The position numbers and the translations under genes are program-made. A stretch of DNA of 36,219 nt from positions 1 through 36,219 of IMG/VR virus record IMGVR_UViG_3300019850_000136; one strand, given 5' to 3'. The notes under the pieces are model-generated. The model searched no databases, was not told the origin of the DNA, and saw only the letters and a list, made by a program, of their open reading frames with translations. Every line of letters starts with the position of its first letter. Position 1 is the first letter of the stretch. Source of the DNA: a virus. This document shows, piece after piece, positions 9,469 through 31,357 of the stretch.

Positions 9469-10869
9469 TTAGGCACGGTAGAATCTATTTCCTTTTTTAA
9501 TGATTTTACCTTTTTGCGATAGATAAAGTCGTGCATCTTGTAGGTTGGCGTTGTTGAATTTTATGCCTTTTTTTCGCAATGATTCCCTACTTCTTATAGA
9601 GTCTCCTTTCTTAACATCTTTTATCATAGAGTTTGACAACTCTATGATTTTTTTATCTTCAATTTTTTTCTCAACTTTTTTAGTTGCTACTTTTACTTTT
9701 CTACTATTTTTCTTTTGCCCTGGGACAGTCGGGGAGTTTTTTGGGACGGTGGTAGATGCTACGAAAGCAGGACGGCTATACGGGATTTTGGGAACTGGAG
9801 TAGTTGACACTTTTCCCATTTCATCTTCTATTTTTTGATACTCTTCTTTCGTGATAGTGTTTGCTCTATATTTCTTTTTTGCCAATCGGCGTACATCCTC
9901 TTTTCTCTTAATTAGCTCTGTAGCAACAAACATGTCCTGTTTGATGCGATAGCTCTCAATCTCTGAATTTTCACGAAGTCTATCAATTCTTCTATTGTGC
10001 TCTTTTGCAAGTTCAAATCTATCATCTACAATATCATCTATTCGCTCAAGTTCATCTTCGGAAAGAAGCATTATACTCAACTGATATTTGTCATTTATCG
10101 TGATTACCGTAAGGTATTGCATGATGGTTGTGAGAGCTAAAAGTAAAATTATTAAAAGGGGGAAAAGCATTTCATCAAAAAAATTAACTTCATTTTTTTT
10201 GATATTTTGAATGTCTTGGCTAGAGACAGCAACTGCTGTCTCTTTTGCTGGTTCATGATTCAAGCTGTCCCACTCTTCTTTGCACTGAGCTTTGTATTTT
10301 GGTTTCCATCCATGCCATTTGTCATCACAGTTTTTGTAGGCACTTGCTTTATTTTCTGCGTACAACTTCACGGCTTGAGCGTAATTTGTTGCATTGATTT
10401 TTGATGCATCTACGCTACTTTCCAAACTTTTGTAGCCCAAAGAGTCAACTACTTTTGACTTCATTCTCATATCTTGAACGTATGAAGCCGTAGTATAAAC
10501 ACCAATAAGATCAAACAGAATGACAAAAATAAACACCCCTATCACAATTTTCTTGTACGTTTCATTGGGTTCATATCCAAACGAAATATTCATGATTTTT
10601 GAGTTCATATATTTCGAGAATGCTGAACGCTTGATGCTGTCAACGATAATAAGGATTGCCAAAAAACCTATCATCATAGATACAATTTTTGGAGTTGTGA
10701 GGTCGTTCCCAAAATAGCCAGTAGCCAGGGAATACGCACCGAAAGCCGAAACTGAAGCCCCTACTACGAGCCCCATAATTGATTTAAAATCATGTTTTGA
10801 AGTTGTAAGATAGTTTTCTATCTCGTTGCTTTGAATATCTTTTAGGGATATTCTATTTTCATTTGTCAT
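9469..10869 (-). CDS. Membrane protein with coiled coil and C-terminal winged-helix-like domain
   Basis: A 466-residue protein, not recognised as a known family. Hydrophobic segments lie near 33-52, 63-80, 109-131 and 232-254. A charged, probably periplasmic or cytoplasmic loop with two Cys separates segments three and four. A long charged helical region (about 275-345) follows, then a Pro/Lys-rich linker with TTVPKNSPTVP. The C-terminus (about 425-466, SIRSRESLRKKG...KGKIIKKGNRFYRA) looks like a small winged helix. A membrane-tethered DNA-binding protein next to primase and recombination genes could anchor replicating DNA, as p16.7 does in phi29; that role is inference. It starts ATG after AAAGGATTAATT and has its own operator. 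Confidence 0.65.
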   Translation of the reverse strand: MTNENRISLKDIQSNEIENYLTTSKHDFKSIMGLVVGASVSAFGAYSLATGYFGNDLTTPKIVSMMIGFLAILIIVDSIKRSAFSKYMNSKIMNISFGYEPNETYKKIVIGVFIFVILFDLIGVYTTASYVQDMRMKSKVVDSLGYKSLESSVDASKINATNYAQAVKLYAENKASAYKNCDDKWHGWKPKYKAQCKEEWDSLNHEPAKETAVAVSSQDIQNIKKNEVNFFDEMLFPLLIILLLALTTIMQYLTVITINDKYQLSIMLLSEDELERIDDIVDDRFELAKEHNRRIDRLRENSEIESYRIKQDMFVATELIKRKEDVRRLAKKKYRANTITKEEYQKIEDEMGKVSTTPVPKIPYSRPAFVASTTVPKNSPTVPGQKKNSRKVKVATKKVEKKIEDKKIIELSNSMIKDVKKGDSIRSRESLRKKGIKFNNANLQDARLYLSQKGKIIKKGNRFYRA

Positions 10870-10924: not shown

Positions 10925-11024
10925 ATTAGTTTGGGACGGTCTAAAATCGTCCTAAATCGTCCTAGGACGATTTTAGACGGAAAAAAGGGACGGTATGGGA
11001 GTTTTTTGGGACGGTCTGGGACGA
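10925..11024. repeat. Cluster of GGGACGGT/ATCGTCCTA repeats with 16-bp hairpin
   Basis: This 100-base gap holds GGGACGGT at 10933, 10987 and 11008, plus GGGACGAT near 11018. It also has a tandem AAATCGTCCT and a perfect hairpin with arms 10939-10954 and 10963-10978. The part 10987-11015 matches 9722-9750 at 26 of 29 bases. It follows the primase stop (- strand), so the hairpin may end that transcript, but no T-run follows. The density of short repeats also suits a protein-binding site. Confidence 0.6.
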
Positions 11025-11882
11025 TTATTGATTTAGGAGATATTCGTTTATGTCCTTACAAGACGAGTAGTATGTTCTTTTGTCTATACAATTTTCAAGA
11101 TGGTTCATGAAGAACTGTGTTGTTTCGTTTCCAGCTTTGTCATTGTCAAGGTAGAGCTCAAAAGTTTGGAATTTGTGTTGGATAGATTCCAATCCTTTTT
11201 CTTTCAGAGAAACGCTATTTAAAATTAAATAGTTGGATAGGGGGGTGCTTCTAGAAATTTCGAGATAAGATAAAAAATCCATAAAGCCCTCAAAAATTTT
11301 CACTGTTTTATTTTTTGGATTCGGGTAGATTGTAGCGATGTCTTTCTTTCCAAATGAACCTTTAAAGTATTTATTCCTAACTTCACGTCCACCACTGTCT
11401 GTGATGAATGAGATGGCAAAATATCTTTTTTCATTTATTTCATAGTATACTTCACCTAGGTATCTTTGGAGGCTGATAGATCTTAGCCCCCGTTCATTCT
11501 TTAAATATTCGACTAAAGCTTGGTTTTGCAATTGTTGCGTTTTAATTATTTTGTAGCTTTTTTCTTTTTTAAAAAAAGAAATAGGGTTCTTTTGAACCTG
11601 CATAGGTCTATTATAGCTTTGAGGTTCTTCTCCTAAGATACTCGCCATCTTTTTCGTTGCTTCAATGAAATCAATTTGAAAATATTCCATGAGAAACTTG
11701 TACTCATTCCCTCCAAGTCCACTAGAGAAATCTTTGAAGTTTCTCCACTCTCCGTCTCTGTTTTGAAATACGAAGAAAGAGGGTGTTTTCTCGTCAACAT
11801 TCCATGGGCTTTTGTACGTCGTCCGACTGGGAGAAGTAGCCGTTGGGACGAAATTCAACGACTGTAAGATTCTGTTTAGCAT
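11025..11882 (-). CDS. DNA primase (TOPRIM, zinc-finger-less)
   Basis: A 285-residue protein that probably makes RNA primers. The N-terminal part (SPWNVDEKTPSFFVF...GEWRNFKDFSSGLGG, about 25-58) is a CHC2-like core lacking the Cys/His ligands. The TOPRIM domain is clear: KIFEGFMDFLSYL with Glu198, YLDNDKAGNE with Asp246 and Asp248, and KDINEYLL with Asp277. It is shorter than DnaG and similar to compact phage/plasmid primases. It lies 3 bases after the exonuclease gene and shares the ERF-exonuclease promoter. The frame continues past the TAA for 20 codons that spell a TVPKNS-type repeat (see findings). Confidence 0.85.
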   Translation of the reverse strand: MLNRILQSLNFVPTATSPSRTTYKSPWNVDEKTPSFFVFQNRDGEWRNFKDFSSGLGGNEYKFLMEYFQIDFIEATKKMASILGEEPQSYNRPMQVQKNPISFFKKEKSYKIIKTQQLQNQALVEYLKNERGLRSISLQRYLGEVYYEINEKRYFAISFITDSGGREVRNKYFKGSFGKKDIATIYPNPKNKTVKIFEGFMDFLSYLEISRSTPLSNYLILNSVSLKEKGLESIQHKFQTFELYLDNDKAGNETTQFFMNHLENCIDKRTYYSSCKDINEYLLNQ

Positions 11883-13289: not shown

Positions 13290-13361
13290 TTTTTAATCCT
13301 TTAATTTTGATATTTCAAATTATACAGTAATTCAGCTTAACAGTTTATTAAATTTAATAAA
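13290..13361 (-). promoter_or_regulatory. Early promoter with palindromic operator for the ERF operon
   Basis: On the - strand the order is: palindrome TTATTAAATTTAATAA (13345-13360), TTAAGC, TATAAT (complement of 13319-13324), then AAAGGATT before the ATG. About 70 bases here are nearly identical to the promoter of the 314-residue protein (17934-18010). This is a duplicated control region. Confidence 0.8.
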
Positions 13362-13872: not shown

Positions 13873-13943
13873 TTTTTAATCCTTTAATTGTGATATGTAA
13901 AAGTATACAGGAACTAACCTTAACAATTTATTAAATTTGATAA
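13873..13943 (-). promoter_or_regulatory. Early promoter/operator of the KH-protein gene
   Basis: On the - strand: palindrome TTATCAAATTTAATAA (13928-13943), TTAAG, -10 box TATACT (complement of 13902-13907), TATCACAATT, and AAAGGATT before the ATG. Layout and spacing match the ERF and 18008 promoters. Confidence 0.7.
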
Positions 13944-13963: not shown

Positions 13964-13998
13964 TGCTATAATTGTTAAAAAAGAAAGAAAGGTTATCA
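13964..13998 (+). promoter_or_regulatory. Divergent late promoter of the portal gene
   Basis: TGCTATAAT at 13964-13972 is a perfect extended -10 box. GAAAGG at 13987-13992 serves the ATG at 13999. The early operator at 13928-13943 sits between this promoter and the divergent KH-protein promoter, so one bound protein could affect both. Confidence 0.65.
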
Positions 13999-15180
13999 AT
14001 GAAAAAGAAAAAGAAAGAACTCGGAGACGGATACGTATCCCTCAGCCAAAAAATAGGGACGCAGGAAGATATACAAACAAAGATGAATATCGGGGCATCA
14101 AACATCACGGAGAACGTTGACTATCTCGAACGCTTCTATGATTCAAACAGCCTATTCATGAACATCGTGAATATCCCTGTAGACGACGCATTCAAGGAGG
14201 GGCGTACAATCCTCGAGCAAGATACAAAAGAGAGCTTAGAGGCGAAATATAGAGAGTTTGGAGTCATAGAAATAGTTCGGAAAGCCTTGGAAATGGCACG
14301 GCTCTATGGTGGTGCATATATATATGTAAGTGACGGTAGGAATCCAAATGAGGAATTAAACCCGAAAATGATAAAACGATTCTCAGTAATTCTACCTCAT
14401 CAGCTAGTGCAGGTAGAGCCATTGAATATAAACCCTATTGCTGATGATTATTTAGAATCGACGAAGTTCGCTATTGCTGTAACCAGTGAAACCATCGACC
14501 CCTCCCGAATGATATATATTGATGGAGATAGATGCTCTGATACTAGACGACAAGAGTTGGGAGGATTTGGGCTGTCTGTTCTTGAAAGAGTGATAGAAGA
14601 GATTCAGAAAGTTGAAGTTTCATCAAATAGGGCTTTGAATATTTTGGATAGGTTGAGCCAAGACGTGTTGAAATTGGATGGGCTGAACGATGCCTTGACT
14701 GAAGCTGGGAGTGAAGAAATGTTGATAAAACGTCTTACATCTATTAATGCAGTAAAAGGGGTATTGTCAACATTGGCGATTGATGGAGAGGATGAATATA
14801 CTAACGTGAACAGATCATTGGGTGGCATCAAAGACGTTATAAATGGCTTTAAGGAGCTTGTCGCTAGTTCTTCAAGGATTCCATATTCTAAGCTGTTTGG
14901 CACGTCTAGCACAGGGCTGAATAGCACAGGAGAGAATGAGCTTAGAAATTATTACGATGAGGTGAATAGTCGGATACAGGAGGGGAAAATCAGAAGTGTT
15001 TTAGGCCAAATTGACTTTTTGCTGGTTGGTAAAGTTGTTGATTTTTCCTTTAATAATTTGATGCAACCATCAGATTTAGATGTGGAAACTTTGCAGGGCG
15101 TAAAAATCGACAACGCGATAAAGATGTTAGACGCTGGGCTCATTGAGGATGATGAAGCTATAAAGATGATAGAGATGTAA
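13999..15180 (+). CDS. Portal protein (DUF1073-like)
   Basis: A 393-residue protein, probably the dodecameric portal. Visible DUF1073-type features are YLERFYDSNSLFMNIVNIPVDDAFKEGR at the N-terminus (quoted as separate motifs: ERFYDSNSLF and IPVDDAFKEG), MARLYGGAYIYVSDG (about 94-108), GFGLSVLERVIEEI, and SRIPYSKLFGTSSTGLNSTG (as IPYSKLFG and GLNSTGENE). The C-terminus carries an acidic helix. The start at 13999 follows GAAAGG; an upstream TTG at 13972 lies inside the -10 box and is rejected. It is separated from the terminase (23.8 kb) and head genes (34.3 kb), which is unusual. Confidence 0.85.
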   Translation: MKKKKKELGDGYVSLSQKIGTQEDIQTKMNIGASNITENVDYLERFYDSNSLFMNIVNIPVDDAFKEGRTILEQDTKESLEAKYREFGVIEIVRKALEMARLYGGAYIYVSDGRNPNEELNPKMIKRFSVILPHQLVQVEPLNINPIADDYLESTKFAIAVTSETIDPSRMIYIDGDRCSDTRRQELGGFGLSVLERVIEEIQKVEVSSNRALNILDRLSQDVLKLDGLNDALTEAGSEEMLIKRLTSINAVKGVLSTLAIDGEDEYTNVNRSLGGIKDVINGFKELVASSSRIPYSKLFGTSSTGLNSTGENELRNYYDEVNSRIQEGKIRSVLGQIDFLLVGKVVDFSFNNLMQPSDLDVETLQGVKIDNAIKMLDAGLIEDDEAIKMIEM

Positions 15181-15199: not shown

Positions 15200-15245
15200 C
15201 TAAGGAAAGGATGAACATCTTCCTTAGCTCTCTAATTTATTTAAT
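15200..15245 (+). terminator. Possible terminator after the portal gene
   Basis: CTAAGGAA (15200-15207) pairs with TTCCTTAG (15220-15227) around a 12-base loop, followed by a weak T-rich stretch (AATTTATTTAAT). It is a modest stem with a poor T tract. A 21-codon frame (15184-15249) overlaps it, but nothing supports that as a gene. Confidence 0.4.
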
Positions 15246-15275
15246 CTAATAAGCTTGCCTTTTTTAAAATTGTTG

Positions 15276-15281
15276 TATAAT
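15276..15281 (+). promoter_or_regulatory. Promoter of the structured RNA
   Basis: TGTATAAT with TATAAT at 15276-15281, inside an inverted repeat GTTGTA/TACAAC (15272-15277 and 15282-15287). A start about seven bases after the -10 box falls at about 15288, the first base of the long RNA stem. Confidence 0.6.
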
Positions 15282-15287
15282 TACAAC

Positions 15288-15410
15288 ATAAATTTTGGCT
15301 AACCCTGTGGCTGGGGTGCTAGTATTACTCTTTTCCCACTTTTAAAAGTGGGGTTAGCCAAGATTTATAAATGAAGAGGAATACTAGCAAACAGCCAAAC
15401 TGCATATTTT
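15288..15410 (+). ncRNA. Undescribed structured RNA with two competing folds
   Basis: Two long pairings interlock. Stem 1 pairs 15288-15305 with 15351-15368: 18 pairs, one of them a G-U wobble. Stem 2 pairs 15309-15313, 15317-15326 and 15328-15332 (inside the loop of stem 1) with 15392-15396, 15380-15389 and 15374-15378 (beyond it): 20 pairs with one mismatch and one small internal loop. A small hairpin CACTTTTAAAAGTG (15337-15350) sits in the loop. Stems this long joined by 3 bases can hardly coexist, which suggests a two-state switch. A separate promoter for the helicase lies downstream (15428), so this can be an independent RNA. The 3' end is uncertain. No known family recognised. Confidence 0.55.
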
Positions 15411-15427
15411 CCCCTCCTTTATATTTC

Positions 15428-15470
15428 TATAATAAGATGGATGTGAACGCATCGATAATAAGGATTAATT
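15428..15470 (+). promoter_or_regulatory. Helicase promoter and ribosome site
   Basis: TATAAT at 15428-15433, then AAGGATTAATT directly before TTG at 15471. The identical AAGGATTAATT spacer precedes ATG at 10869 (- strand) and 21012, which supports TTG as the true start. CCCCTCC at 15411-15417 resembles the 16S anti-Shine-Dalgarno core. Confidence 0.6.
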
Positions 15471-16946
15471 TTGGAAACTTTGTTAGAAGAAAAATCTCAA
15501 GAACGTTCAAGCTTGGAACGTGAAAAAATGATAGGAGACTTCAATTCTCTACAAAAAAAATACTTTGATAATGGATGTATGGATACAGAAGCAGAAGCAT
15601 TGCAGAAATGTGTATCAAAAATGATACGCATGGGCATTGTCAATGAGTATATGGACTGTTATTACGATAATACAATTGAGAAATTTCGGACAGTGGGATT
15701 GCAGAGTGGAGAAGTAAACATAAAAGATTCTCACACTTCTATCCGTGCTTTGATGTCAAGCTATTACGGGTCGCGATTCATGCCGCGATCTATCGTAGAC
15801 AACACTCCTACAAAACTCACAGAGTTCAACCCTCACGCCACGGGTGAACGTGCAGTTGATGGAGTTATGTACATCAATATGTATAGAGAAACGAAGTACA
15901 TGGGCATTAGACGTACAGAAAATAATACAATAAATAAAATAAAATGGGACAGCGTTCCAACATGGAAAGAAGTTTTTGACAATGTTTTCCCAAAAAAGAA
16001 AGAACAAGATTACTTTTTGAATTGGTTGGCATATGGACTACAAACACGTTCAAAATGTAGAACAGCAATTATCACAAAAGGGATCGAGGGAGCTGGAAAA
16101 GGGCTTATATACGAGCAAATCATCCAGAAGATTGTAGGGAAGCAATATACATCTACAATCACCCAAGAGACGCTATCGGGGCGTTTCAACGGACAGCTTG
16201 AAAACAAGCTCTTTATTCTAGCAAACGAGGTGAAAGCTGATTTTAGGGATGGAAACAGCACGTACGAAAAATTGAAAATGTACGTGACCGATAAAACTTT
16301 GAACATTGAAAATAAAGGCGTGAAAACTTATGAAGTTGAAAACTATTTCAATTTATGGCTTCATTCAAATGAAGCTATCCCAATTCAAATTGGGGCTACT
16401 GATAGACGCTATACAGTGACTGAAAGTTCATCCAGAAAAATACTTGATATCGCTGTGAGCAAAGGCTATGGAGATATGAATACGTACGTTGAATTATTAA
16501 AAGAAGAAGCTCACAATCTTTGCGTTCAAATCATGCTACTCAAAACTGACCCCCTAAAAGCAACAAATCCAATGGAGTCAGACGCAAAGAGAACGATAGT
16601 CAACGCAACAATTCCAAAAGTACAATCTCTATGTGTTGCTTTGCAAAGAAAAGACCAGGAGTATATATACTCTCTTTGTTCTGACATATTTGAAGATTTG
16701 ACACCCCTGGATGATGTCTCAGTGAAAAGAGGGAAGAGATTGATTTCCTTTGACAATTTTGAAAGTCTAGCAATAGAGATCCTGACTCAACTTGAAACGG
16801 GATATATTGAAACAAATTTCCTATCCAGGCTATATATATCTTGCGTCAACTCAACGCACAACGCAACAAAAAGAGGGATAGAAGTCTCAAAGTATCTAGG
16901 GAAAGCAATCCAAAGGGGTGGTATCTCAAAACGCCCTATAAGCTAA
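15471..16946 (+). CDS. SF3 replicative helicase (D5-like/DUF5906)
   Basis: A 491-residue helicase that probably unwinds the origin. It has Walker A GIEGAGKG (204-211), Walker B KLFILANEV (246-254), a sensor-like LWLHSNEA near 295 and an arginine-finger candidate DRRYTV. This is the order of pox D5/phage SF3 helicases. The N-terminal 165 residues include IKWDSVPTWKEVFD, typical of the D5_N region, but no primase motif; priming probably comes from the TOPRIM primase at 11.0 kb. It starts with TTG. The gene lies between the structured RNA and the iteron array, the usual place of an origin initiator. Confidence 0.85.
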   Translation: METLLEEKSQERSSLEREKMIGDFNSLQKKYFDNGCMDTEAEALQKCVSKMIRMGIVNEYMDCYYDNTIEKFRTVGLQSGEVNIKDSHTSIRALMSSYYGSRFMPRSIVDNTPTKLTEFNPHATGERAVDGVMYINMYRETKYMGIRRTENNTINKIKWDSVPTWKEVFDNVFPKKKEQDYFLNWLAYGLQTRSKCRTAIITKGIEGAGKGLIYEQIIQKIVGKQYTSTITQETLSGRFNGQLENKLFILANEVKADFRDGNSTYEKLKMYVTDKTLNIENKGVKTYEVENYFNLWLHSNEAIPIQIGATDRRYTVTESSSRKILDIAVSKGYGDMNTYVELLKEEAHNLCVQIMLLKTDPLKATNPMESDAKRTIVNATIPKVQSLCVALQRKDQEYIYSLCSDIFEDLTPLDDVSVKRGKRLISFDNFESLAIEILTQLETGYIETNFLSRLYISCVNSTHNATKRGIEVSKYLGKAIQRGGISKRPIS

Positions 16947-17046: not shown

Positions 17047-17421
17047 ATCGACTATATACAAAACTGTATATAGTTTGATATACCCTATACAAAACTATAT
17101 ATAAACCCTATTTTTTGCCAAAAAACTGTATACAAACTATATACAGTTGTATACAGTTTGTATACAGTTTTGTATACAGTTTGGAGTTTTCTTAAAGTTT
17201 TTTTAAACTGCTTCTAAAGCCCACAGTTTAGGGCTTTTGTATATACTATATATACTATTTGTATATAGTTGTATACAGTTGTATACAGTTTACGCAACTC
17301 GCACACACAACACACTGTGTTTATATACGAAAGCCCACAGTTTGGGGCTTTCGTATATCTGTATACAGTTTTGACAGTTTTGAAAGTTCAAAACTGTATA
17401 CAACTGTATACAACTGTATAT
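17047..17421. repeat. Iteron array and paired hairpins, candidate replication origin
   Basis: No gene fits here. GTATACAGTT or one-base variants occur at 17066, 17140, 17149, 17160, 17172, 17261, 17271, 17281 and 17361 on +, and inverted (AACTGTATAC) at 17124, 17392, 17402 and 17412. Three copies at 17261-17290 are head-to-tail with a 10-bp period, as are the inverted ones at 17392-17421. Two related hairpins share the loop ACAGTTT(A/G) and the stem AAAGCCC/GGGCTTT: 17216-17237 (7 pairs) and 17323-17358 (14 pairs). Iterons in phase with the helix turn, AT-rich flanks and the upstream helicase suggest a theta-type or initiator-dependent origin. Confidence 0.7.
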
Positions 17422-17550: not shown

Positions 17551-17592
17551 TTATCAAACTTAATAAGTTACTAAGCTTATTTGCTGTATAAT
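17551..17592 (+). promoter_or_regulatory. Early promoter/operator of the 99-residue gene
   Basis: TTATCAAACTTAATAA (17551-17566), then TAAGC, then TATAAT at 17587-17592, followed by TTTGAAATATCA and AAAGGATT before the ATG. It is a slightly diverged member of the five-site operator family. Confidence 0.7.
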
Positions 17593-17621: not shown

Positions 17622-17921
17622 ATGGGAATATTTGACGGATGGGGTGAGAGTTGTGGTGCAACTACTTATTCAATAAAACATACGCCGCAACAAGAGGCTA
17701 TTGCCAATAGCATAAAAGAGACCAAAGGAAAATTAAAAAGAGATGATATTGAATTGGTTCTCAATGTCATGAAAAAGAATGGGATGTCTTGTTTCGTAAA
17801 AATAAAAAAGCAAGCTCTTCACGGTCAGCTATATTTGTATGGCTACAGTACCACCTCAAAAGTGGTACTCGTCGAGGATCACACCCTTGATGAAGACTTG
17901 TACTGGCTGAATTTAGTATAG
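17622..17921 (+). CDS. Small early protein, unknown function
   Basis: A 99-residue protein of no recognised family. The N-terminus is Gly-rich with one Cys (GIFDGWGESCGATTYS). The middle is a helical stretch (QQEAIANSIKETKGKLKRDD), and the C-terminal half looks like strands (MSCFVKIKKQALHGQLYLYG, quoted in part; KVVLVEDHTLDEDL). It is the first gene after the origin and has its own operator-promoter. The next operator palindrome begins 5 bases after its stop. Early timing and position fit a regulator or host-takeover protein, but no motif proves either. ATG after AAAGGATTGACA. Confidence 0.65.
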   Translation: MGIFDGWGESCGATTYSIKHTPQQEAIANSIKETKGKLKRDDIELVLNVMKKNGMSCFVKIKKQALHGQLYLYGYSTTSKVVLVEDHTLDEDLYWLNLV

Positions 17922-17925
17922 AATT

Positions 17926-17975
17926 TTAACAGTTTATTAAATTTAATAAACTGTTAAGCCGAATTACTGTATAAT
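17926..17975 (+). promoter_or_regulatory. Early promoter with 32-bp perfect palindrome
   Basis: Bases 17926-17957 are a perfect palindrome centred on TTATTAAATTTAATAA. TATAAT follows at 17970-17975, and AAAAGGATT lies before the ATG at 18008. The block is nearly identical to the ERF-operon promoter on the opposite strand (13290-13361). Confidence 0.8.
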
Positions 17976-19475: not shown

Positions 19476-20057
19476 ATGTATAACAAAATAGTATTAGTAG
19501 GAAATCTTACAAAAGATGTTGAGATAAAATATTCACAAAGTGGATCGGCTATTGGCAACGTTGGTATTGCTGTGAATAGAAAGTGGAAGAGCCAAACGGG
19601 TGAACAAAAAGAAGAGGTGATGTTCATCGACTTAACATTCTTTGGGCGTACTGCTGAAATAGCAAATCAATATCTTTACAAAGGAAGTAAAGTTTTAGTC
19701 GATGGACGACTTGTATTTCAACAGTGGACTGCACAAGATGGAAGCAAACGAAGTAAACACGCTGTTACTGTAGAAAACCTACAGATGTTAGATTCAAAAG
19801 CTGATAGCATGAACCCTAACAATACCAATGGATATGGTGAGCAACCAAGCCAAAACAACTACGGTGGACAAAACCAAGGTGGTTATGGTAATAATAACAA
19901 TGCCAGTGGAGGATACGATAACAGTGGTTATAATGCTCCTCAACAACAAAATTACGGTCAACCACAAGTTTCTCAACAACGACCTACTCCAATACAACGA
20001 CCAACGCAACCATCATCCCAGGGAATCAACATAAATAACAATGAAATACCATTTTAA
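19476..20057 (+). CDS. ssb: Single-stranded DNA-binding protein
   Basis: A 193-residue SSB. The OB fold (1-108) shows KIVLVGNLTKDVEIKYSQSG, then FIDLTFFGRTAEIANQYLYK (quoted in part) and KVLVDGRLVFQQW. A Gly/Asn/Gln-rich disordered linker (about 115-185) ends in the NNNEIPF tip, a variant of the DDDIPF tail that recruits partner proteins. The OB fold is very close to Campylobacterota host SSBs, which is the best host clue in the window. It coats single strands made by the helicases and exonuclease. The gene has its own promoter and a following pair of overlapping genes. Confidence 0.95.
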   Translation: MYNKIVLVGNLTKDVEIKYSQSGSAIGNVGIAVNRKWKSQTGEQKEEVMFIDLTFFGRTAEIANQYLYKGSKVLVDGRLVFQQWTAQDGSKRSKHAVTVENLQMLDSKADSMNPNNTNGYGEQPSQNNYGGQNQGGYGNNNNASGGYDNSGYNAPQQQNYGQPQVSQQRPTPIQRPTQPSSQGININNNEIPF

Positions 20058-23485: not shown

Positions 23486-23830
23486 ATGTATACAAGACTA
23501 AAACAAGAAATATTAGCATTGTTGAAAAAAAAGGACAATGCTGATATCCTTGAAGATGCGTCAACTTCCCTAATGCTCTCATCTATGCAAAATCTTTTGG
23601 AAAACATAGACGATATCAAAGAAGAACTCTCATACATTCCTATAGAAGAGACAGAGAAGAGGAAAGAGTGTAGAGAGGAGCTCACAGCCTTGAGCCTCCA
23701 AGTTCTGAAATACTCATCTTCCATCATGAGATATATCGACAATTCGAAAACACGAAATAATATATCTTCTGGAGGGTTGATAAACATGCCACTCCTCACT
23801 GTCAAAGACCTATATGAATCTGAATCCTAA
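23486..23830 (+). CDS. Probable small terminase subunit
   Basis: A 114-residue, highly helical protein encoded directly upstream of and overlapping the large terminase by 17 bases. The N-terminus (YTRLKQEILALLKKKDNADI) could be DNA-binding, and the centre is a coiled-coil-like oligomerisation region rich in Glu/Leu. Size and position fit a small terminase that recognises pac and loads the large subunit. No sequence signature was recognised, so the call is by synteny. There is no ribosome site; a leaderless mRNA is likely. If so, the pac site may lie within or near this gene. Confidence 0.55.
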   Translation: MYTRLKQEILALLKKKDNADILEDASTSLMLSSMQNLLENIDDIKEELSYIPIEETEKRKECREELTALSLQVLKYSSSIMRYIDNSKTRNNISSGGLINMPLLTVKDLYESES

Positions 23831-25202
23831 TCTAAAAGATTTTTGGTTCACTCCTAAAAATAAAATCATAAAATCAAGGTACAAAGTACTGTACGGTGGG
23901 CGTTCCTCCTCTAAATCCCACGACATTGCCAGGATGCTGATATTTCTCTCCATCAACATGAAAAAGCGTATTCTTTGTTTGAGAATGTTCCAAGTGAGAT
24001 TGAGCGATTCAGTCTATTCACTACTTCAAGACATTATCTATCAGTCTCATCTTGATGGATATTTCAAATTCACAAAATCATCTATTATTTGCACTGTTAC
24101 GGGCAGTGAGTTTCTATTCTACGGTATTGCTCGGAACACATCCCAACTCAAGGGTCTTGAAGCTATAGACATCGCATTCATTGAGGAAGCTGAAACGCTC
24201 ACGAAAGAAGCTTTTGATATCATCACTCCTACAATCAGGGCTGAAAATAGTGAGATTATCATAGCTTTCAATCCTCAACTGGACACAGATTTTGTATATG
24301 ATTATTTTATTGTGAACACTCCAAAAAATGCAAGGATTCGGCACATCAACTACACCGAAAATCCCTATCTTTCAAACACTATGCTGAATGATATCGAGAT
24401 TTTTAAGGCTCAAGATTATGAGGCATTTAAGCATCTTTTCCTTGGATATCCAAAAACTGATGATGTTGAATCAGTGATACAGAAAAGTACACTTTTGGCA
24501 TGTATTGGAGCGAAAAAAAAGCTAAAGAAAAGGGGTTTCTCTTTTAATAATTCTAAAAGAGTCATTGGGTATGACGTGGCTGATATGGGTGGAGATACTA
24601 ACGCATATTGTGTACTGGATGGTATAGAAATTGTCGACATTGTGGAGTGGAAAGGGGAAGAAAATGGGTTGATGGAATCGAGTAGAAAAGTACACAGTAG
24701 AGCAAAAAAAGATAATTGTGAAGTAGTTTACGATTCAGTTGGGGTTGGTGCTGGAGTCGGTTCAAACTTCAAGATTTTGAACAGTCAAGACCCACATCAC
24801 GCGATAAAATTTACAAAGTTTGTAGCTGGTGGAGCAGTATTTAAACCAAATTCCTTCTATCGAATTGGAGCAGTCACGACAGAAATCAAAAATAAGGACT
24901 ATTTCGAGAATATCAAGGCTCAAGCATGGATTACGCTTAGAGATAGGCTCAAGGCTACTGAAAGGGCATTGAACGGCTCTATTGTTGAAAAAGAAGAGGA
25001 TTTGATATCAATCTCAAAAGATATTTCACTTCTAAACAAGCTAATCAAAGAGCTCACAACCCCCCACCTCATCCGTTCTGAAAATCAAAAGAATGCAATA
25101 GAAAAAAAGAAAGATATGATAAAGCGTGGAGTGAAATCTCCAAATCTTGCCGATGCTTTGGTTATGACAATCCTCGGAACAAAAGCAAAATGGAGTATTT
25201 AG
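23814..25202 (+). CDS. terL: Terminase large subunit
   Basis: A 462-residue packaging motor and nuclease. ATPase: Walker A-like YGGRSSSKS (27-35), Walker B IDIAFIEEAE with Glu124-Glu125, coupling motif IIIAFNPQ (148-155). RNase H-like nuclease: Asp254 in GYDVADMGGD, Asp307 in VVYDSVGVGAG, and the C-terminal SPNLADALVM Asp near 449. This is the PBSX/P22-like (headful) terminase group. A headful enzyme agrees with the circular map. It overlaps the small subunit gene and is followed by a 200-base gap. Confidence 0.95.
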   Translation: MNLNPNLKDFWFTPKNKIIKSRYKVLYGGRSSSKSHDIARMLIFLSINMKKRILCLRMFQVRLSDSVYSLLQDIIYQSHLDGYFKFTKSSIICTVTGSEFLFYGIARNTSQLKGLEAIDIAFIEEAETLTKEAFDIITPTIRAENSEIIIAFNPQLDTDFVYDYFIVNTPKNARIRHINYTENPYLSNTMLNDIEIFKAQDYEAFKHLFLGYPKTDDVESVIQKSTLLACIGAKKKLKKRGFSFNNSKRVIGYDVADMGGDTNAYCVLDGIEIVDIVEWKGEENGLMESSRKVHSRAKKDNCEVVYDSVGVGAGVGSNFKILNSQDPHHAIKFTKFVAGGAVFKPNSFYRIGAVTTEIKNKDYFENIKAQAWITLRDRLKATERALNGSIVEKEEDLISISKDISLLNKLIKELTTPHLIRSENQKNAIEKKKDMIKRGVKSPNLADALVMTILGTKAKWSI

Positions 25203-28398: not shown

Positions 28399-28428
28399 TA
28401 AGAGAGAGAGAAATTTCTCTCTCTCTTA
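28399..28428. terminator. Perfect GA/TC palindrome after the fibre gene
   Basis: Arms 28399-28413 and 28414-28428 are fully complementary with alternating GA and TC, five bases after the fibre stop. As RNA it is a strong stem, though with no loop beyond the central AAATTT and no T-run. Terminator or mRNA-end stabiliser. Confidence 0.6.
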
Positions 28429-30680: not shown

Positions 30681-30780
30681 TATTAAACTTCATAAGCTAT
30701 TATTTATTTATGAAGTTTAATAAATTATTAAGCAGTTTTCTACTATAATTGTATTAGCGAAAGATTATCTCTTTCGCTAA
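30681..30780 (+). promoter_or_regulatory. Early-type operator, promoter and 5'-terminal mRNA hairpin of pentapeptide gene
   Basis: A 15-bp inverted repeat (30681-30695 and 30708-30722) includes TTATGAAGTTTAATAA, a member of the early operator family. TATAAT is at 30744-30749. The expected start is at about 30756, and a perfect 11-bp stem (30754-30764 with 30770-30780, loop TTATC) would form at or near the very 5' end of the transcript. AAGGATT follows before ATG 30803. Confidence 0.7.
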
Positions 30781-30802: not shown

Positions 30803-31357
30803 ATGAAAACAAACAAACAAAATGCGAATTTAGCTGGTGCGAATCTAGCTGGTGCAGATTGGTCAGGTGTAAACTTGACTGGTGCAAATTTAACTGGTGC
30901 AAATCTATCTGGTGCAAATTTGGCAGGTGCAGATTTGGTTGGTGCAAATCTAATAAATATTGATTTGCCTGGTGCAAATCTATCTGGTGCAGATTTGTCA
31001 TGTGCAAATTTGGCAGGTGCAGATTTGTCATGTGCAGATTTGGCAGGTGCAGATTTGGCAAGGGTAAATCTATTAGGTGCAAATTTAGATAGTGCAAATC
31101 TATCTGGTGCGAATTTAGATGGCACTATTGGCAATGGATATGATATTTTTACAGCTCAACTTAGTGGGCTTACTGCAGTGTTCACCAAAGATCTCATTCA
31201 GATAGGGAAAGAGTCCAACACCTGCGAAGAGTGGGAAAATTTAAAAAATTCAGAAATTAAAAAAATGTTTGAGTTCCCTTGTTTTTGGGAAGAGAACAGA
31301 GAAATGATATTCTCAATGTACTATCATATTTTCCCACAAATGAAAAGGGGGTGGTAG
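30803..31357 (+). CDS. Pentapeptide-repeat protein
   Basis: A 184-residue protein. Residues about 6-110 are continuous A(N/D)LxG repeats (ANLAGANLAGADWSG and so on, about 20 units), which fold into a right-handed quadrilateral beta-helix. The C-terminal 70 residues are helical and end in a charged tail. Family members include gyrase-protecting DNA mimics and effectors. In phages they may modify host topoisomerase or block superinfection; no specific target can be read here. It is an isolated cassette with an early-type operator, so it looks like a moron. Confidence 0.85.
   Translation: MKTNKQNANLAGANLAGADWSGVNLTGANLTGANLSGANLAGADLVGANLINIDLPGANLSGADLSCANLAGADLSCADLAGADLARVNLLGANLDSANLSGANLDGTIGNGYDIFTAQLSGLTAVFTKDLIQIGKESNTCEEWENLKNSEIKKMFEFPCFWEENREMIFSMYYHIFPQMKRGW

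Follow-up and report, generated by a model that had tools for sequence, protein, structure and literature searches.

A candidate bistable leader RNA ahead of the SF3 helicase gene of a phage that likely infects Campylobacterota

Upstream of the SF3 helicase gene of this phage lies a 116-nt element (15288–15403) whose predicted plus-strand transcript can form either of two long, interlocked helices. We suggest, with a probability of roughly 0.45, that the helicase mRNA begins with this element as its 5′ leader, which switches kinetically between two folds and so controls this mRNA. It can be described as a candidate bistable phage leader RNA that stands outside any named family. We know of little work on gene control in phages of Campylobacterota. 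If the proposal is true, a phage would possess a switch that needs neither a ligand pocket nor a terminator, in which a leader is sorted during its own synthesis into two long-lived shapes ahead of the helicase that initiates genome copying. It seems rather doubtful to us that such a pair of interlocked, mutually exclusive helices constitutes a new class of kinetic, transcription-ordered switches setting replicative helicase expression in Campylobacterota phages.

The phage genome and its likely host

The stretch of DNA that we analysed (the window) is the complete viral record of 36,219 bases. Its last 141 bases are identical to its first 141, and because of this end repeat we take the phage genome to be circularly closed, with a length of ~36,078 bases. 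The window contains structural and lysis genes (major capsid, neck, tape measure, portal, terminase, tail and lysis) and genes of replication, namely those for Erf, a YqaJ exonuclease, a DnaG-like primase, SSB, a resolvase-like protein, a DEAD/SNF2-type helicase and the SF3 helicase. The portal gene (13972–15180) adjoins the replication helicase and is distant from the terminase gene (23814–25202); in those of the retrieved terminase relatives that have a recognisable portal, the portal lies downstream of the terminase, often directly.

The SSB (19476–20057) shares 79.6% identity over its first 108 residues with the SSB of Sulfurovum mangrovi (73% identity at the DNA level), and its next-nearest matches come from other Campylobacterota. 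This similarity suggests that the SSB was gained from a Sulfurovum-like host. The host of the phage likely falls within Campylobacterota and probably belongs to sulfur-oxidising marine bacteria.

Two interlocked helices

The initial annotation had described two long helices with interlocking strands at this locus, and we found both of them on the plus strand. Stem 1, which defines fold A, joins 15288–15305, beginning at the predicted transcript start, to 15351–15368 by 18 pairs with a single G-U (U15294·G15362). Stem 2, which belongs to fold B, joins 15317–15332 to 15374–15389 with 15 of 16 positions paired (the mismatch is A15327×G15379), and it can be extended outward by 15309–15313/15392–15396. 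The two stems interlock as a-b-a′-b′ with linkers of 3 and 5 nt. Relative to 200 dinucleotide shuffles, the z-scores of folding are –5.2 for 15288–15368, –5.6 for 15309–15396 and –4.3 for 15288–15403. Folding of the minus strand is also significant (z = –4.0). Hence, the strand of the RNA is argued from the promoter and from the G-U, which forms a pair only in plus-strand RNA, and not from fold energy.

We defined an interlocked pair as two helices of at least 14 Watson-Crick pairs each, with at most one mismatch and a span of up to 130 nt. Such pairs are absent from 2.17 Mb of Markov sequence and from 1.81 Mb of other, mostly phage, DNA. Two are present in the window, the 15288 element and one in a repeat array at 17.2–17.4 kb. 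In that array (17051–17420), located between the helicase gene and the one that follows, CTGTATACA is densely repeated in direct and inverted orientation; the array is itself a candidate replication origin or operator array.

These counts bear on the reading that the element comprises 5′ stabilising hairpins of a neutral or ordinary kind, or a mobile palindrome in decay, devoid of any switching function. The leader behind another promoter of the same family (TATAAT at 30744) likewise begins with a hairpin, and the element is known from a single sequence. However, random and natural DNA very rarely holds two long helices that interlock, and near-perfect pairing in a presumably fast-evolving intergenic region would argue for upkeep. 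We consider this reading quite improbable.

As single-stranded DNA the element also folds significantly, and the folding of both strands, as RNA and as DNA, would suit an element that works at the DNA level. The overlapping inverted repeats would then act in replication or recombination (as a cruciform, a single-stranded hairpin site, or a site of helicase loading or priming), and their transcription would be incidental. The element adjoins the replicative helicase, and the G-U could be a simple mismatch. Yet the motif at 15288 occurs only once in the genome, the CTGTATACA repeats at 17.05–17.42 kb make a better candidate origin, the element has a regulon promoter directed into it, and of the two strands the plus strand has the more stable fold (–40.5 versus –35.9 kcal/mol). 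Overall, a function at the DNA level appears unlikely.

Competing folds and their order of formation

The minimum-energy fold of 15288–15403 is fold B, at –40.5 kcal/mol. It combines stem 2, whose loop holds a perfect palindromic hairpin (CCCACUUUUAAAAGUGGG, 15335–15352), with a small hairpin (15302–15317) and a closing helix (15294–15300/15393–15399). The closing helix uses the plus-strand sequence UUUGGCU (15294–15300), which pairs with 15356–15362 in fold A or with AGCCAAA (15393–15399) in fold B. Because the 5′ strand thus has a second partner, the folds exclude each other by sequence and not by topology alone. The palindromic hairpin, in turn, is in competition with stem 1 at the inner end of that stem. 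As an alternative, fold B is complete, and its pairing at 15393–15399 is new relative to the initial annotation.

In growing transcripts, fold A is the best for 3′ ends at about 15360–15390 and fold B from 15396 onward. For RNAs that start at 15288, the ensemble energies of A and B are –43.2 and –42.2 kcal/mol (3′ end at 15427), –50.4 and –51.7 (15470), –61.9 and –63.8 (15530), and –73.3 and –77.6 (15600); the gap depends on the chosen 3′ end, with about 2 kcal/mol between the folds at 15530 and B better by 4.3 at 15600. The barrier from A to B is ~23 kcal/mol as a direct-path estimate, and real branch migration may be easier. All fold energies are predictions for one sequence, computed without pseudoknots or proteins. 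The earlier proposal of mutually exclusive folds is supported, and gains from the second partner of the 5′ strand and the near-equal energies of A and B. According to these models the idea of two states is credible and has gained somewhat in strength; we infer that the RNA may indeed switch.

A phage-specific promoter family

The –10 box of the putative promoter of the structured RNA, TATAAT at 15276–15281 on the plus strand, ends 7 nt before 15288 and lies inside a 7-bp dyad, TGTTGTA-TAAT-TACAACA (15271–15288). An A+T dyad on the same strand, TTATTTAATCTAATAA (15237–15252), is found 39 nt upstream of it and agrees with TTATTAAATTTAATAA at 14 of 16 positions. A scan of all TATAAT boxes revealed a family of promoters in this phage in which the dyad TTATTAAATTTAATAA stands 36 or 39 nt upstream of TATAAT. 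Six such pairs are present in the window versus none in 200 second-order Markov genomes, a count that is only descriptive because the dyad was defined from those sites. The pairs precede the Erf/YqaJ/primase block (TATAAT at 13324, minus strand), the portal gene (dyad 13928–13943, TATAAT at 13967, plus strand), the structured RNA (dyad at 15237, TATAAT at 15276, spaced by 39 nt as in the portal promoter), and the open reading frames at 17622 (17551–17592, TATAAT at 17587), 18008 (17934–17975, TATAAT at 17970) and 30803 (30708–30749, TATAAT at 30744). A seventh –10, TATACT, reads toward the KH gene from the shared dyad at 13928–13943.

The dyad TTATTAAATTTAATAA is a candidate binding site, and probably that of a phage regulator. 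The family gives a first outline of a regulon that would comprise recombination, primase, a KH-like protein, portal, helicase and further genes, and it makes the structured RNA easy to test. The open reading frame 30803–31357, which follows the family promoter with a leader hairpin, contains a 15-nt periodic repeat (30813–31157) and possibly encodes a protein of the pentapeptide-repeat type.

Since the 15276 promoter belongs to a phage-specific family, plus-strand transcription from about 15288 is credible. This membership, which is new here, constitutes the best evidence for an RNA beginning at about 15288 from what is a predicted promoter. Both the membership and the TATAAT spacing agree with the earlier view that the promoter sets the 5′ end on the first base of stem 1. 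A separate helicase promoter had been placed further downstream. A TATAAT is indeed present there (15428–15433, plus strand), but it is weak, with neither the family dyad nor a recognisable –35. Possibly, it could yield helicase mRNA that does not carry the element.

With the helicase transcribed from 15428, the element would be a stand-alone or processed small RNA of about 110–125 nt (15288 to ~15403), acting in trans on phage or host RNA or protein. Such an RNA would have its own regulon promoter, beginning exactly at stem 1, and long duplexes suited to processing and stability, with the TATAAT at 15428 close downstream. However, no terminator follows 15396, the rest of the phage offered no complementary target of at least 14 nt (13 nt at best, flank 15406–15418 against the portal gene), and no Rfam family matches. 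We therefore view a small RNA acting in trans as conceivable, with the odds well against it. The flank in question, ATTTTCCCCTCCT (15406–15418), lies just past the RNA; its complement is at the portal gene end (14978–14990), and it also resembles an anti-Shine-Dalgarno sequence, possibly by chance.

The helicase gene and possible modes of control

The gene downstream of the element (15471–16946, plus strand, TTG start) encodes an SF3 helicase (DUF5906) of 491 aa that is homologous to the helicase domain of the NrS-1 primase-polymerase. It matches the solved NrS-1 helicase domain (6k9c, E = 1e–30), has its nearest match in the Nitratiruptor phage NrS-1 primase (27%), and also has relatives among records that carry the annotation P4-family primase; in this phage the primase part has a gene of its own. 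By homology, its identity is firm, as the initial annotation had it in calling the gene a replicative helicase. The predicted ribosome-binding site is AAGGA (15460–15464, plus strand), and AAGGATT precedes several genes of the phage.

We found no intrinsic terminator between 15288 and the helicase start at 15471, and because none separates the RNA from the helicase, the element is most likely the helicase 5′ leader. No hairpin of fold A or B is followed by a U run, as the GC-rich hairpin of an attenuator would be. Fold-dependent hiding of the ribosome-binding site, of the translational-riboswitch kind, was not found either: the mean unpaired probability of 15459–15465 is 0.46 in A versus 0.34 in B for RNA to 15530, and 0.32 in both for RNA to 15600. 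As access to the ribosome site does not shift consistently between the folds, control by processing, stability or elongation is favoured. For the same reason, and since neither fold contains a terminator, a direct read-out mechanism is not visible. A 50-aa leader peptide from 15371 was considered and rejected, as it overlaps the helicase out of frame and has no support.

We propose the following course of events for a kinetically switching leader. Helicase mRNA would start at about 15288 from the phage-regulon promoter, and during transcription its 5′ end would pair first with 15351–15368 to give fold A. Once 15374–15399 emerges, fold B, with its stem 2, its central hairpin and the 5′ strand paired anew, would be equally or slightly more stable. 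Exchange between A and B would be slow, so that the leader would come off RNA polymerase in either of two long-lived states, whose ratio would depend on transcription speed, pausing, a bound protein or a second RNA. This ratio would decide how much intact helicase mRNA continues, by way of processing (e.g. by RNase III on the 16–20 bp duplexes), stability or elongation and not by hiding of the ribosome site. Our computations gave both folds, their energies and order of formation, the promoter family, and the absence of a terminator and of a consistent ribosome-site effect; transcription itself, the switching and control of the helicase by the element are what we infer. Judging by its position, the element may control replication timing. 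Two other roles raised in the initial annotation found no support: for binding of the KH protein, the KH match is below the Pfam cut-off and the AlphaFold model (pLDDT 43) is too poor to judge, and we found no evidence for action against the host.

Comparison with known systems

In satellite phage P4, whether transcription continues depends on RNA pairings ahead of the replication genes (PMC4825925). The P4 leader with its CI immunity RNA (seqA-CI-seqC) is the nearest to our element in working principle, and somewhat like it by analogy. In both, an untranslated structured leader stands before a replication helicase gene, long alternative pairings share one leader, and replication gene expression may be controlled at the RNA level. 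Moreover, the downstream gene is of the P4 primase-helicase type (DUF5906/SF3). However, the CI RNA of P4 is complementary to two targets and acts by premature termination, whereas here no intrinsic terminator was found, the helices interlock as a-b-a′-b′, and we see no relation in sequence to P4, nor is a processed RNA known. UUUGGCU does have two partners, but the main helices are two different pairs, a/a′ and b/b′. We do not regard the element as a member of the P4 immunity RNAs.

The HK022 putL RNA is located just downstream of its promoter and forms two stem-loops in about 70 nt (PMC9378689). Our element, too, begins right where a phage operon transcript is predicted to start and has two long stems, so it might be a promoter-proximal RNA that binds RNA polymerase and confers resistance to termination, as put RNA does. 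Yet the put hairpins are adjacent and coexist, whereas the long helices in the 116 nt considered here interlock and, at such length, exclude each other; there is no Rfam match, and no downstream terminators in need of suppression were identified with confidence. A put-like function appears the least probable of the readings weighed here.

The leader IsrK of prophage Gifsy-1 has two roles, as a small RNA and as a portion of an mRNA, and its control is structure-dependent (PMC4825925). Control of a leader through its structure would be common to both; control of IsrK, though, works by opening up a ribosome site, an effect that our fold predictions do not show, and no sequence relation is known. 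Bistable leaders of the riboswitch type share with the element a pair of competing folds that are close in energy and ordered by transcription, but no known ligand-binding core, terminator, hiding of the ribosome site or Rfam match was found in our case.

Searches for families and homologues

No match in the window reached the gathering score of Rfam 15 (the best weak regional match has 18.4 bits against a cut-off of 73), in line with the earlier impression that no known RNA family fits. A riboswitch, an attenuator, and a known antitoxin or retron-type RNA were rejected on the basis of the Rfam result and the absence of an adjacent reverse transcriptase or defence protein.

Searching viral and genome contig collections, from which very near records may be missing, with the helicase, portal or terminase protein as a single query or with helicase alignments returned no homologous locus. 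A terminase alignment search gave 80 loci (20–47% protein identity), none with the RNA, and the phage promoter motif was found at 53 loci in viral contigs, none related. Exact patterns derived from the RNA had three matches, all unrelated, two of them being a GC-rich terminator-like hairpin, while blastn of the intergenic region against phages and plasmids gave short chance matches only. A single-sequence covariance model of fold B, run over the fetched loci and whole records, produced only weak matches. The best one outside the window (19.5 bits, on a Sulfurovum mangrovi plasmid) is upstream of a TonB receptor gene and lacks the outer helix; we attribute it to chance.

Other repeats in the genome

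An 18-bp inverted repeat with several copies of GGGACGRT (10937–11026) is located upstream of an uncharacterised 466-aa gene (9469–10869, minus strand); its arms overlap, making alternative pairings possible. A perfect 30-nt palindrome, TAAGAGAGAGAGAAATTTCTCTCTCTCTTA (28399–28428), follows a 996-aa gene and is perhaps a bidirectional terminator.
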